In this document: one piece after another, positions 19,201 through 23,779 of the stretch | Numbering within the stretch: position 1 is the first letter of the stretch | Layout: each line of letters starts with the position of its first letter | Assembly (NCBI RefSeq): GCF_943192945.1 | Contig: NZ_CALPCE010000001.1 | Coordinates: 248,001 to 312,000, forward strand | Reading direction: 5' to 3' | Length of the DNA: 64,000 nt | Source: Anaerocaecibacter muris | Lineage (GTDB): Bacteria; Bacillota; Clostridia; Christensenellales; Pumilibacteraceae | Translations under genes and position numbers: made by a program | Notes under the pieces: model-generated | Databases searched by the model: none | Seen by the model: only the letters and a program-made list of their open reading frames with translations | What the model was told of the DNA's origin: nothing

Positions 19201-20175
19201 TTGAAAAAGAGTATTCACAACGACGAATTGCGCGCCGTGTTCGGCGCGTATGACGCGAATATAAAGGCGTTGGAGGAGCTGTGCGGCGTGACTGTTCGCA
19301 CCGCCGCCGACAGCGTGGAAATAATCGGGAAAAATACGGAAACGGCGGAGCTTATGCTCGATAAACTTATTGCCGCCGTTCGCCGAGGCGAGCACGTCAC
19401 GCCCGACACCGTCCGCAGATATTTCGACATTTTGACGGACGATCCCGACGGGATAGAAAATATTTCCGCTCAACCCGTATGCGTAAACGCGCACGGGCAA
19501 AAAATCTACGCGAAGACGTTGCGTCAAAAAAAATTCGTGGACGCTGTAAACTCCAATCTATTGACTTTTGCGATAGGTCCGGCGGGCACGGGTAAGACCT
19601 ATCTTGCCGTTGCCATGGCGGCTAACGCCGTCAAGAAAGGACAGGCGGACAGAATAATACTCACGCGCCCCGCAATCGAGGCGGGCGAAAAATTGGGCTT
19701 TTTGCCGGGGGATCTTCAAATGAAAGTCGATCCTTACTTAAAGCCGCTGTACGACGCGCTCGGCGAAATGTTCGGCGCGGACTATACAAAACTAATCGAG
19801 CGCGGTACGGTGGAAATCGCGCCGCTCGCGTACATGCGTGGAAGAACGCTGTCGCACGCGTTTATTATTCTCGACGAAGCGCAGAACACCACGCCCGAAC
19901 AGATGAAAATGTTTTTGACTCGGTTCGGCGAAGGCAGTCGCGCCATAGTGACGGGCGACGTTACGCAAATCGACTTGCGCGGCGAACCGTCGGGGCTTGT
20001 CGAAGCGGAACAGGTTTTAAAGGACGTGGACGGCATAGCGTTTGTGCGGCTGTCGGAAGACGACGTAGTGCGGCACGGGCTTGTTATGAAAATAGTCAAA
20101 GCGTACAATAATTACAACAGACAGACAACTCAAAGGAGAAATCATGCGGGAAGCGGAAAAACCGAACGACAATAG
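19201..20175 (+). CDS. phoH: PhoH-like ATPase
   Basis: A 324-residue P-loop ATPase of the PhoH/YbeZ family, thought to act with YbeY in rRNA or RNA processing. Visible: an N-terminal KH-like part (residues 1-100), Walker A AIGPAGTGKTYLAVA, the LTRPAIEAGEKLGFLPGD motif and Walker B FIILDEAQNTTPEQ. The start appears to be TTG at 19201, because no ATG or GTG exists in frame after the yqfD stop; GGAG at 19183-19186 is unusually far (14 bases). The pgpH gene starts inside its 3' end (32-base overlap). Confidence 0.93.
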   Translation: MKKSIHNDELRAVFGAYDANIKALEELCGVTVRTAADSVEIIGKNTETAELMLDKLIAAVRRGEHVTPDTVRRYFDILTDDPDGIENISAQPVCVNAHGQKIYAKTLRQKKFVDAVNSNLLTFAIGPAGTGKTYLAVAMAANAVKKGQADRIILTRPAIEAGEKLGFLPGDLQMKVDPYLKPLYDALGEMFGADYTKLIERGTVEIAPLAYMRGRTLSHAFIILDEAQNTTPEQMKMFLTRFGEGSRAIVTGDVTQIDLRGEPSGLVEAEQVLKDVDGIAFVRLSEDDVVRHGLVMKIVKAYNNYNRQTTQRRNHAGSGKTERQ

Positions 20176-21613
20176 CGCAACGTCATACGAACCGCCGCGC
20201 GGCGCGTACTTTTGGCTTGCGGGAATTTTTGCGATAGTTTTCGCCGTTATTTACATAACGCTCGTATTGTTTGTGCACTTCGTAAGTCCGGGTAAGGGCA
20301 TATTCGGCATGAACGATACGGAAGCATACACGCTGTACGTATTCGTATTTGCGTTTTTTCTTGTCGCGCTGTACGTGTATATGGTCGTATCGCGCAAAGA
20401 ATTACTGTTTTCGTTAAAACGCGCGGGCGCGTTAATGGCTATATTTACTTTTGTAGTAGTCGTGAATATAGTTGTGGTCGCGTTCAATCCGTACTTGATA
20501 TGCGTCGCGCTTACGTCAATGCTTGTGTTGCCGTTTTCCAAACGGAGCGACGCGTTTGTCCTTAATGCGTTTTCGTGCTGGATTTCGTCGTTCGTGTTAA
20601 TAGCTACGCTCGATTACAGTCAATTTCCCGCCGTTGCGTTTACTCTGCTCGCGGGCATGATTTGCGGCGCGGTCGCAACGTATTCGTTCCCGTCGGACAT
20701 GACGCGCGCCGTGTCTGTATTGCGTTCGTTCGTTACGGGCGTTGTCACGTTGTTGGTGTACGGCGTGTTGCTGTCCACGTACAAGCTCGACTTTAAACCG
20801 TTTTTCGATAACGTCATGTATATAGGTTTTTCGGTCGCGGGCGAACTGTTGCTTACAGCGGTTATCGAGCCTATTATCGAGTGGATTTTCAATCTTACGA
20901 GCGACTATAAACTTATGGAGCTTACCAACCACAAAGCGCCGCTTATTCGCAGGTTGAGCACGGAAGCTCCCGGAACGTTTAACCACTGTTTGGCGGTAGC
21001 CAACTTTGCCGAAATCTGCGCCGATGCAATAGGCGAGGATACTTATCTTGCGCGCGCGTGCGCTTACTATCACGACGTAGGCAAGCTCAATAACGTCGAA
21101 TATTTTACCGAAAATCAGGCGGGCTACAACCCTCACGACGAAATTCTGCCCGAGGTGTCCGCGGAAATTATTCGCAAGCACACGGTCGACGGATACGAGC
21201 TGTGCAAAAAGTACCGCATACCCGAGGAAGTGGCGCGCGTTACGATAGAACATCACGGCACATTGCCGATTATGTACTTTTTCAATAAAGCGAAGTCTCT
21301 TACCGACGGCGACGTCGATATGGACGAATACCGCTATTACGGCGAAATCCCCACGGGCAAGATAGGCGCGATCATCATGATTTGCGATTCCGCGGAAGCG
21401 GCGATCCGCGCCATGGACAACCCGACGGGCGAAAAGGTGGACAAGCTGTTGCGCGGCATGATTGACGAGCGGTTAAAGCTCGGACAGTTCGACAACTGCG
21501 AAATAACGATGAAAGACTTGACGGCGATACGCGAGGCGATTGTCGGCGCGTTCGGCGGATTGTTCCACAAACGCATAAAATACAATATCGGACGCGGCGG
21601 CATAAATGTTTAA
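20144..21613 (+). CDS. pgpH: PgpH-type c-di-AMP phosphodiesterase lacking the extracellular domain
   Basis: A 489-residue membrane HD phosphodiesterase (YqfF/PgpH) predicted to hydrolyse c-di-AMP. Several membrane helices occupy residues 23-250, and an HD domain follows with NHCLAVA (His281), YYHDVGK (His310-Asp311), ENQAGYNPHDEI and TIEHHGT, all as in the family. Standard PgpH is about 700 residues because a large extracellular 7TMR-HDED domain sits after the first helix; it is absent here. AGGAG precedes the ATG inside phoH. With CdaA at 7770 it gives the cell both ends of c-di-AMP turnover. Confidence 0.9.
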   Translation: MREAEKPNDNSATSYEPPRGAYFWLAGIFAIVFAVIYITLVLFVHFVSPGKGIFGMNDTEAYTLYVFVFAFFLVALYVYMVVSRKELLFSLKRAGALMAIFTFVVVVNIVVVAFNPYLICVALTSMLVLPFSKRSDAFVLNAFSCWISSFVLIATLDYSQFPAVAFTLLAGMICGAVATYSFPSDMTRAVSVLRSFVTGVVTLLVYGVLLSTYKLDFKPFFDNVMYIGFSVAGELLLTAVIEPIIEWIFNLTSDYKLMELTNHKAPLIRRLSTEAPGTFNHCLAVANFAEICADAIGEDTYLARACAYYHDVGKLNNVEYFTENQAGYNPHDEILPEVSAEIIRKHTVDGYELCKKYRIPEEVARVTIEHHGTLPIMYFFNKAKSLTDGDVDMDEYRYYGEIPTGKIGAIIMICDSAEAAIRAMDNPTGEKVDKLLRGMIDERLKLGQFDNCEITMKDLTAIREAIVGAFGGLFHKRIKYNIGRGGINV

Positions 21614-22940
21614 ACTCACGGGAGAAGTGCAAGCGGGATTCAACAGGCTTGCGGGAATTATTTTTCACATGCTCAAACTCAAAGGCGACGCAACCGTCGA
21701 TATAGCGGTTACGGACGACGCGAGTATGCGCGAACTTAACAAGACGACGCGCGGCGTGGACGGCACGACGGACGTGTTGAGTTATCCCGCGCTCGACAGG
21801 ATAGTCGATTTTACGCGAAAAAATTATCCTAACGATTACGACGAGCAGCAAAAAGCTGTCGTTTTGGGCGAAATAGCCATAAACCTCGACGCGGCGGCGC
21901 GTCAGGCGGAGGAGTACGGCACGGGCGCGCGCGAGGTCAATTATTTGTTCGTGCACGGCATGTTGCACTTGCTCGGTTACGATCATATCGACGAAAACGA
22001 CAAAGCGAAAATGCGCGAACTCGAAGAAGCTGCGCTCGCCGAACAGGATAAATCGGTAGTGGTCGCGGTTGTCGGCAGACCAAACGCGGGCAAGTCGTCC
22101 ATAGTAAACGCGATAGTAGGCGAAAAAGTTTCCATAGTTTCGCCCAAGCCGCAAACGACGCGCGACAGAATAACGGGGATTTGCACCGAGGGTAGCAGGC
22201 AGATAATATTCCTCGACACCCCGGGTATGTTTAAACCGCGCACCAAACTGGACGAACACATGGACAAAAGCATACGAAGCTCGCTCGGCGGCGACGCTGA
22301 TGTTGTACTGGTGGTGCTCGACAGCACGAAAGGCATGACCGAGGCGGACGAAAAACTTATAACCGAACGGCTTAAATGCAAAGCGCCGCTGTATATAGCG
22401 GTAAACAAAACCGACTTAAAGGGTTACGACGGCGTTTATCCCATTTTGGAAAAACTAAACCCGCTCATGACGCGGGGCGAGGGTAAGTCCGTCAAGGACG
22501 TTATCCCCACAAGCTGTAAAACGGGCAGAAATATAGACGTGCTTAAAGCCGCGCTGTTCGAGGAGTGCAAGGACGGCGGGTTCTTATTTCCGGCGGACGA
22601 GTATACAGACAGACCCGTTAAGTTTTTAATAGCGGAAACGGTGCGCGAAAAGGCGTTGTTGTTTTTGCAGGACGAAATCCCGCACGGCGTGGGGGTAAGC
22701 GTCAGACAGGTGGACGAATCGGCGCAACCCATACGCATTTCGTGCGACGTGATAGTCGACAAGCAGTCGCATAAACAAATAGCGATTGGCGACGGCGGAG
22801 AAATGATAAAACGCATAGGTCAGTCGGCGCGGCGCGACATCGAGCGCATGCTCGGCGAGTCCGTTTACCTCGAACTGTTTGTCAAGGTGCGCACGGGCTG
22901 GCGCGATCGATCGGACATACTCAAAGACATAGGTTATTAG
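21606..22940 (+). CDS. YbeY-Era fusion: rRNA endoribonuclease plus ribosome-assembly GTPase
   Basis: One 444-residue reading frame joins two normally separate proteins. Residues 1-148 are YbeY: LSYPALDR, LGEIAINLD and the zinc-binding HGMLHLLGYDH (His117, His121, His127), which matures 16S rRNA. Residues about 150-444 are Era: G1 GRPNAGKSS (157-165), PQTTRDRI, G3 DTPG (204-207), G4 NKTD, and the C-terminal KH domain (GDGGEMIKRIG, WRDRSDILKDIGY), which binds the 16S 3' end. There is no stop or start signal at the junction (EAALAEQDKSVVVAVVG). The start overlaps pgpH by 8 bases. In Bacillus, ybeY and era are separated by dgkA and cdd, both missing here. Confidence 0.93.
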   Translation: MFKLTGEVQAGFNRLAGIIFHMLKLKGDATVDIAVTDDASMRELNKTTRGVDGTTDVLSYPALDRIVDFTRKNYPNDYDEQQKAVVLGEIAINLDAAARQAEEYGTGAREVNYLFVHGMLHLLGYDHIDENDKAKMRELEEAALAEQDKSVVVAVVGRPNAGKSSIVNAIVGEKVSIVSPKPQTTRDRITGICTEGSRQIIFLDTPGMFKPRTKLDEHMDKSIRSSLGGDADVVLVVLDSTKGMTEADEKLITERLKCKAPLYIAVNKTDLKGYDGVYPILEKLNPLMTRGEGKSVKDVIPTSCKTGRNIDVLKAALFEECKDGGFLFPADEYTDRPVKFLIAETVREKALLFLQDEIPHGVGVSVRQVDESAQPIRISCDVIVDKQSHKQIAIGDGGEMIKRIGQSARRDIERMLGESVYLELFVKVRTGWRDRSDILKDIGY

Positions 22941-22993: not shown

Positions 22994-23101
22994 ATGGAAA
23001 ACGACGAAAAGATGTTTTGGGATTTGTTTTGCTCGACGGGCGAACCGCGGTACTATTCCATGTATGTAAAAGAACGCGAAAAATCCAACGAAAAGCGTTA
23101 G
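22994..23101 (+). CDS. yqzL: YqzL-like microprotein
   Basis: A 35-residue protein with GGAGGG just before the ATG. Its MFWDLFCSTGEPRYYSMYVKER segment matches the pattern of YqzL, a tiny protein encoded between era and recO in Bacillus. The position is the same here. The function of YqzL is unknown. Confidence 0.72.
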   Translation: MENDEKMFWDLFCSTGEPRYYSMYVKEREKSNEKR

Positions 23102-23140: not shown

Positions 23141-23779
23141 ATGATTGATTTTACCGATAAATGCGTTACGCTTAAAATAAGCGATTACCGCGAAAACGAC
23201 AGGCTGGCAAAAGTGCTTACCGCAGAGCACGGTATGGTTACCGTGTTGCTTCGCGGCGTGAAAAAAGCGAAAGCAAAGTTAAAACCGTTTGCGCAGGAGT
23301 TTACCGTTTACGACGCTCGGCTCACAGCCAATAAGGGCGCGTTCTTGACGGTTATAGACCCGTTCCTGATAAGCGACGGTTTTTTGCTTTGCGCGGACTT
23401 GAAAGTTTTTACCGCGGCTTCGGTCGCGGCGGAAGCGACGGTTGCGGCGCTCGGCGACGAGCAAACGCACGCGCCCGTGTTTTTGGAATTTTTAAAGCTG
23501 TTGCAGGCGTTGCGCCCCGATTGCGACCCGTACTATCAGGCGGCGGTATACATGACGCGGCTGTTGGAGCTTACGGGGTTTTTCAGAGAATATACATACG
23601 TCGGCGGCGAGCCGACTTCGCCCGTGCAAATGCTCGGCTATGCGCAACGCAACGGTTACGAGCAGGCGAGCGACAGGGATCTGTCGCGCCGCGCGCTCAA
23701 ATTCGTGTGCGGCGAGTTTCAACGCAACTTCGACATCGGGCTTAAAAGCGTGGACTCGATAGATTTATACGGAAAATAG
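23141..23779 (+). CDS. recO: DNA repair protein RecO
   Basis: RecO loads RecA on single-stranded DNA with RecR and anneals complementary strands. The 212-residue protein has the N-terminal OB fold (LKISDYRENDRLAKVLTAEHGMVTVLLRG) and a helical C-terminal domain. Many Firmicutes RecO proteins are 240-260 residues and carry a CxxC...CxxC zinc finger; no such pairs are present here, and the protein is correspondingly short. It follows yqzL in the standard Firmicutes order. Confidence 0.88.
   Translation: MIDFTDKCVTLKISDYRENDRLAKVLTAEHGMVTVLLRGVKKAKAKLKPFAQEFTVYDARLTANKGAFLTVIDPFLISDGFLLCADLKVFTAASVAAEATVAALGDEQTHAPVFLEFLKLLQALRPDCDPYYQAAVYMTRLLELTGFFREYTYVGGEPTSPVQMLGYAQRNGYEQASDRDLSRRALKFVCGEFQRNFDIGLKSVDSIDLYGK

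Follow-up and report, generated by a model that had tools for sequence, protein, structure and literature searches.

The window analysed here, a stretch of 64,000 nucleotides from Anaerocaecibacter muris, a member of the Clostridia, contains a single open frame in which YbeY is directly followed by the GTPase Era. This raises the question of whether the join merely unites two neighbouring genes or creates a factor whose two halves act together in the assembly of the small ribosomal subunit. YbeY located directly N-terminal to Era within one open frame is what has been defined as a YbeY-Era fusion (PMC10582724), and such fusions are already in print for clostridia (PMC6738653, PMC10582724). As in the protein of the window, YbeY forms the N-terminal and Era-KH the C-terminal part of a single chain in a clostridial host; the available passages of these papers, however, contain no junction analysis, no origin counts and no functional test. 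In the available passages of PMC10582724 the N-terminal YbeY fusion is named as the most frequent Era fusion, the taxa are listed and the working of fused Era is treated as an open question. The same passages mention the RNase III-Era fusion of some Rickettsia, in which Era is also joined to a pre-rRNA RNase, although both the nuclease and the lineage differ from the fusion in the window. The fusion type itself is known, and new here are the repeated changes of state, the very short join in the genus of the window and a counter-example, i.e. the fusion of YbeY to cytidine deaminase.

The fused gene and its surroundings

The ybeY-era fusion gene codes for 444 amino acids (window positions 21606..22940, + strand). 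As the initial annotation had read from the sequence, one frame holds a complete YbeY and a complete Era with KH domain: translation of the open frame runs from the ATG at 21606 to the TAG at 22940 without an internal stop, and the curated cut-offs are passed for both parts. The YbeY catalytic part, residues 1-127 (21606..21986, + strand; PF02130, TIGR00043 and alignment to solved YbeY chains), closes with the zinc motif HxxxHxxxxxH in the form HGMLHLLGYDH (His117, His121 and His127). It is followed by a junction of 29 residues (21987..22073, + strand). The Era part, residues 149-444 (22050..22937, + strand; NF000908, TIGR00436 and KH_2), carries GRPNAGKS (G1), DTPG (G3), NKTD (G4) and the KH domain at residues 357-433. 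In the Pfam search YbeY (PF02130) matched residues 12-145 with 113.6 bits (cut-off 25), MMR_HSR1 residues 153-268 and KH_2 residues 357-433 with 58 bits (cut-off 22), and among the NCBIfam models the YbeY model TIGR00043 reached 117.5 bits (cut-off 45) and the Era models NF000908 and TIGR00436 reached 313.1 bits (cut-off 237) and 244.7 bits (cut-off 116.25), respectively.

The residues expected for function are in place in both halves. Arg49 and the three His residues are invariant in 17/17 sequences, and Arg49 aligns to position 59 of the E. coli YbeY chain 1xm5, which we take to be the important conserved Arg (Arg59). The G1, G3 and G4 patterns are present in all 51 fused loci, whereas a home-made GxxG-type KH pattern was found in 33 of the 51, with none of the misses in the genus of the window. 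A search of the genome gave this frame as the sole YbeY match and the sole full-length Era match, and the whole fusion as query found one full-length match and six partial matches to the GTPase region with 27-36% identity. Judged by these matches the protein almost certainly contains both domains in complete form, in a single copy and in one open frame. Stand-alone YbeY (E. coli YbeY, B. subtilis YqfG) and Era have the same catalytic and nucleotide motifs and a similar neighbourhood in Bacillota, but are two proteins instead of one chain.

Upstream of the fusion, an HD-domain protein (20144..21613, + strand; PF01966), presumably YqfF-like, overlaps its start by 8 nt, and a PhoH/YbeZ-like ATPase (19201..20175, + strand; PF02562, 301 bits) and, downstream, RecO (23141..23779, + strand; PF11967, PF02565) are conserved neighbours. 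Between era and recO lies an ORF of 35 amino acids with a GGAGG site (22994-23101, + strand), which has no Pfam match and which we take to resemble Bacillus YqzL; in 18/18 other loci of the genus, era is likewise followed by a similar small ORF (WELFC.TG.P.YYSMY).

Conservation in the genus and the product of the frame

The fusion is real and is conserved across an uncultured genus of Clostridia. YbeY matches were found in 18 of the 19 other genomes of the genus, each within a frame of 444-479 amino acids, and all 18 frames carry YbeY and Era domains; the exception, G008, is a draft of 410 contigs with 78% completeness. Full-length Era was matched once per genome in 19 of the 20 genomes of the genus (all but G008), always inside the fused frame, the next Era matches being far weaker per stretch and reaching the cut-off only by adding two stretches of a Der-sized frame. 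As the assemblies are metagenome drafts, an assembly or sequencing error that took out a stop or shifted the frame might be suspected. However, 18 other assemblies of the genus have an intact frame and a junction of identical length, and because they share the fusion we reject such an error, the chance of which we regard as vanishingly small. The 16 confirmed public loci, which come from several accession series and cover residues 1-444, belong to the same assemblies as 16 of the 18 genomes of the genus and thus add no further evidence.

The single chain is likely the product of this frame. Alternatively, the frame might be translated as the full chain and also, from an internal start, as free Era. 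An ATG at Met136 is present in 19/19 sequences of the genus, and in several members its upstream bases equal those of the fusion's own start in the strength of their pairing with the 16S tail (down to -6.3 kcal/mol). Yet Met136 lies within the last helix of YbeY and is also found in fused proteins of other genera, and the strength of the pairing is not kept genus-wide. For the window, the calculated anti-SD pairing before Met136 comes to only -2.0 kcal/mol, a weak value, and the mean of the genus (-4.35 kcal/mol; n=19; range -0.8 to -6.3) is near that of background codons (-3.62 kcal/mol; n=7691) and well short of the values for the fusion's own starts (-6.24 kcal/mol) and for the start of era in 17 unfused sister loci (-7.47 kcal/mol). 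As judged by codon conservation and anti-SD pairing in the 19 sequences of the genus, the junction has no other conserved in-frame start. On average, internal re-initiation of Era is unsupported by start-codon conservation and anti-SD pairing, although it may occur in single members of the genus, and we consider a second, free Era product very improbable.

Distribution of the fusion and its probable origin from adjacent genes

YbeY was matched in 69 of the 74 genomes from the family of the window. The fusion was confirmed in 23 of them, i.e. in 19 genomes of the genus, including that of the window, and in G431, G433, G309 and G435. Separate genes in relatives, named beforehand in the initial annotation as an argument against a true fusion, do occur outside the genus, in the 25 other loci fetched from the family, and in 0/18 of the genus loci read. 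The remaining 21 family loci were assessed by frame length: in 19 the frame is no longer than 212 amino acids and could not hold both domains, and in the other two (G021, G429) the match is cut. In family f25 the YbeY frame is at least 462 amino acids long in 36 of 40 cases; 19 loci were fetched and confirmed as fused (one of 402 amino acids), one is separate, and G343 shows no Era in the stretch taken. In this last locus (L194) YbeY lies in a frame of 188 amino acids with no Era within the 9 kb taken, and its genus, g135, has two fused others, so that fission, rearrangement or an assembly break are all possible. Family f29 has fused-length frames in 8 of 108 matches, with 8/8 confirmed as fused, and the fusion was found in 1/6 matches of family f18 and in 1/10 of family f24. 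Four genera (g80, g371, g395 and g4) contain fused and unfused loci side by side.

The initial annotation had proposed mapping such fusions on a tree. A tree of 147 loci from the order and the phylum (52 fused) was calculated from the two domains, leaving out the spacer; it shows at least 11 changes of the fused state, a count that does not tell gain from loss. A single ancestral fusion, with all fused rows in one clade, was rejected (p-AU 1.6e-55; 106 rows, 34 fused). Within the family of the window, a clade of the genus plus the other four fused loci was weakly rejected (p-AU 0.028), and a clade of these other four was not rejected (p-AU 0.084); support for separate origins within the family is only moderate. 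Overall, the YbeY-Era fusion seems to arise repeatedly between neighbouring genes. These results refer to 170 classified loci out of 195, leaving out L001, L012-L018, L019-L034 and L157 (repeats or other genes); 13 of the 170 are incomplete and 11 repeats were left off the trees, giving 146 loci plus the window. Long-frame candidates were taken among the matches listed of 382 YbeY matches, which gives no order-wide fused fraction. Three long frames (G424, G355 and G400) turned out not to be YbeY-Era fusions, that of G355 being a YbeY-cytidine deaminase frame. One fused protein of the family (L121:3963-5564, from G435) has a long spacer and the motif HGLLHLLGNTH instead of the usual HxxxHxxGYDH. 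In four loci from other families of the phylum (L067, L068, L069 and L071) era directly follows in the frame of ybeY, with nothing but a stop and a short gap in between.

In Bacillus-type loci ybeY and era are separated by dgkA and cdd. In S. aureus the genes of the operon include DgkA and Cdd, according to the available passages of PMC6738653. The initial annotation had noted that these two genes are gone. Indeed, nothing lies between the two parts, but the 25 unfused loci that were fetched from the family likewise lack a gene between ybeY and era, and DgkA (PF01219) has 0 matches in the 74 genomes of the family, whereas the same model matches 8 of 14 control genomes, B. subtilis among them. 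Thus, the loss of dgkA and the loss of cdd from this position did not accompany the fusion in the genus of the window. Some loci elsewhere in the order, in other families, still have a gap of several hundred bases between ybeY and era, which leaves room for a gene. In 9 of the 25 unfused loci of the family, ybeY and era overlap by 4 nt. The fusion may stem from adjacent ybeY and era genes as in the sister genera, via a small net deletion: compared with one common sister layout (24x3+3+23 = 98 nt vs 87) a net loss of 11 nt would yield the observed frame.

Exactly 29 residues lie between the last His of YbeY and Gly157, the first Gly of the Era P-loop GRPNAGKS, and this holds for the window and for 18/18 loci of the genus. 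Going by the secondary structure of the two families, the stretch takes in the end of the last YbeY helix and the first strand of Era. When the two proteins are separate, the commonest length is 24 residues for the YbeY tail past the last His and nine for the Era head, i.e. the junction is shorter than both ends summed. The start codon nine codons before the P-loop, which is the usual start of unfused sister era genes, is absent from the junction. A spacer could be measured in 50 of 51 fused loci and has 29-95 residues, the genus of the window having the shortest; the other measured loci have spacers of 31-95 residues, the sequences of which differ by eye.

Partners of the YbeY C-terminus and the possible function of the join

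With L072-L095 and repeats left out, YbeY is joined to Era in 51 of the 133 loci examined, which is not a rate, since the loci were partly picked for long YbeY frames, and for which the family counts given above are fairer. Other neighbouring pairs in these loci were never found fused (YqfD-PhoH 0/47, PhoH-HD 0/55, HD-YbeY 0/108, Era-RecO 0/101), and this contrast speaks for something special on the C-terminal side of YbeY, although the control pairs are imperfect: a fusion of HD to YbeY would tie YbeY to a probable membrane protein, and 82 of the 101 Era-RecO pairs are not adjacent.

Era is not the only partner found at this side. Five of six loci with long-tailed YbeY carry a cytidine deaminase (5/5 by Pfam, one also by NCBIfam), four of them in family f4 (L050:1072-2016, L058:1087-1995, L147:4575-5786 and L155:4932-5837) and one in family f12 of the same order (L002:1096-2013). 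In each case YbeY and the deaminase share one frame, with era separate and downstream. As in the window, the C-terminus of YbeY is thus joined to a downstream gene of the operon, but the partner is a nucleoside-salvage enzyme instead of a known assembly factor and Era remains separate. To our knowledge, cytidine deaminase has no role in ribosome assembly, and a limited literature search found no published YbeY-cytidine deaminase fusion. As these fusions occur at the same locus, a join to the C-terminus of YbeY needs no shared function, and much of the fusion pattern can be explained by an extension-tolerant C-terminus and a closely following gene. In the sixth locus (L172:2917-3720; G091, family f18) YbeY has a C-terminal extension of 112 residues that matched no other Pfam family.

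We give a probability of roughly 0.55 to the reading that the gene of the window makes a bifunctional assembly factor of the small subunit. From what is known of the two families, the Era half may bind the 3' end of 16S rRNA/h45 via its KH domain and may cycle GTP on the nascent 30S subunit, while the YbeY half, held nearby, may act on the platform, i.e. in the placement of uS11, and/or on the 3' single-stranded tail. The join would ensure 1:1 stoichiometry and co-recruitment; that its benefit lies in simultaneous action on the 30S subunit is a proposal to which we would give even odds. The initial annotation had pictured a nuclease tethered for cutting the 3' end. This is one of two live models; in its available passages PMC10582724 disputes it, arguing that Era is not directly involved in final 3' processing and suggesting for Era and YbeY a joint role in platform assembly, where they may aid the installation of uS11, and in these passages the platform model is the better supported one.

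The coupling that the initial annotation had inferred finds backing in the literature, as two-hybrid and pull-down data linking YbeY and Era have been published, but the link is modest. In the passages available, a YbeY-S11-Era three-way two-hybrid interaction is reported for E. coli, with 2 of 4 YbeY-Era plasmid combinations positive, whereas two large-scale studies did not catch the pair (PMC5101352), and the interaction in S. aureus is described as weak (PMC6738653). Loss of human YBEY caused no detectable 12S misprocessing, and ERAL1 was found near YBEY by FLIM-FRET and was not co-precipitated, as stated in the passages of PMC7515705. Among solved structures we recognised no YbeY-Era complex; PDB entry 9jkp has an Era chain, and no paper was found for that code. 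Cooperation of Era and YbeY is plausible from this literature, but the fusion by itself is no proof of it, and as cytidine deaminase is, in other families, a further fusion partner of YbeY at the same locus, the fusion alone is weaker evidence than had been supposed.

Instead, small indels may have joined the tail of YbeY to the next gene in a near-neutral way, so that both old functions were kept and the join itself is idle. That ybeY and era are neighbours, sometimes overlapping as in the unfused family loci and presumably co-translated, that the YbeY tail tolerates extensions and that deaminase fusions exist at the same locus in two families all agree with idle joining, as do the genera with fused and unfused members. 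Moreover, the varied spacers of the other fused loci indicate that no fixed geometry is needed. On the other hand, YbeY-Era is the commonest join among the loci examined, every one of the 18 genus loci read retains the fusion, 36 of the 40 f25 genomes retain fused-length frames, and independent literature connects the two proteins. We consider idle joining a serious possibility with somewhat less than an even chance. The bifunctional factor, in turn, is consistent with curated models above cut-off for both halves and with a 29-residue junction that recurs in each of the genus loci read. For the question of how the two proteins cooperate on the 30S subunit, a single-copy fusion with a short junction is a good reagent for cryo-EM and complementation: it could show whether both proteins occupy the subunit together and where the active site of YbeY points. 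The YbeY-cytidine deaminase fusions, in turn, caution against taking gene fusion as proof of shared function.

A stricter form of coupling would be a join without any linker in the genus of the window, with the last helix of YbeY running straight into strand 1 of Era. The two domains would then form one rigid body with a geometry set by the nascent 30S subunit, and the GTP cycle of Era would position or gate the active site of YbeY. We regard this as doubtful; if true, the linkerless fusion would be a natural molecular ruler for the site of action of YbeY beside Era.
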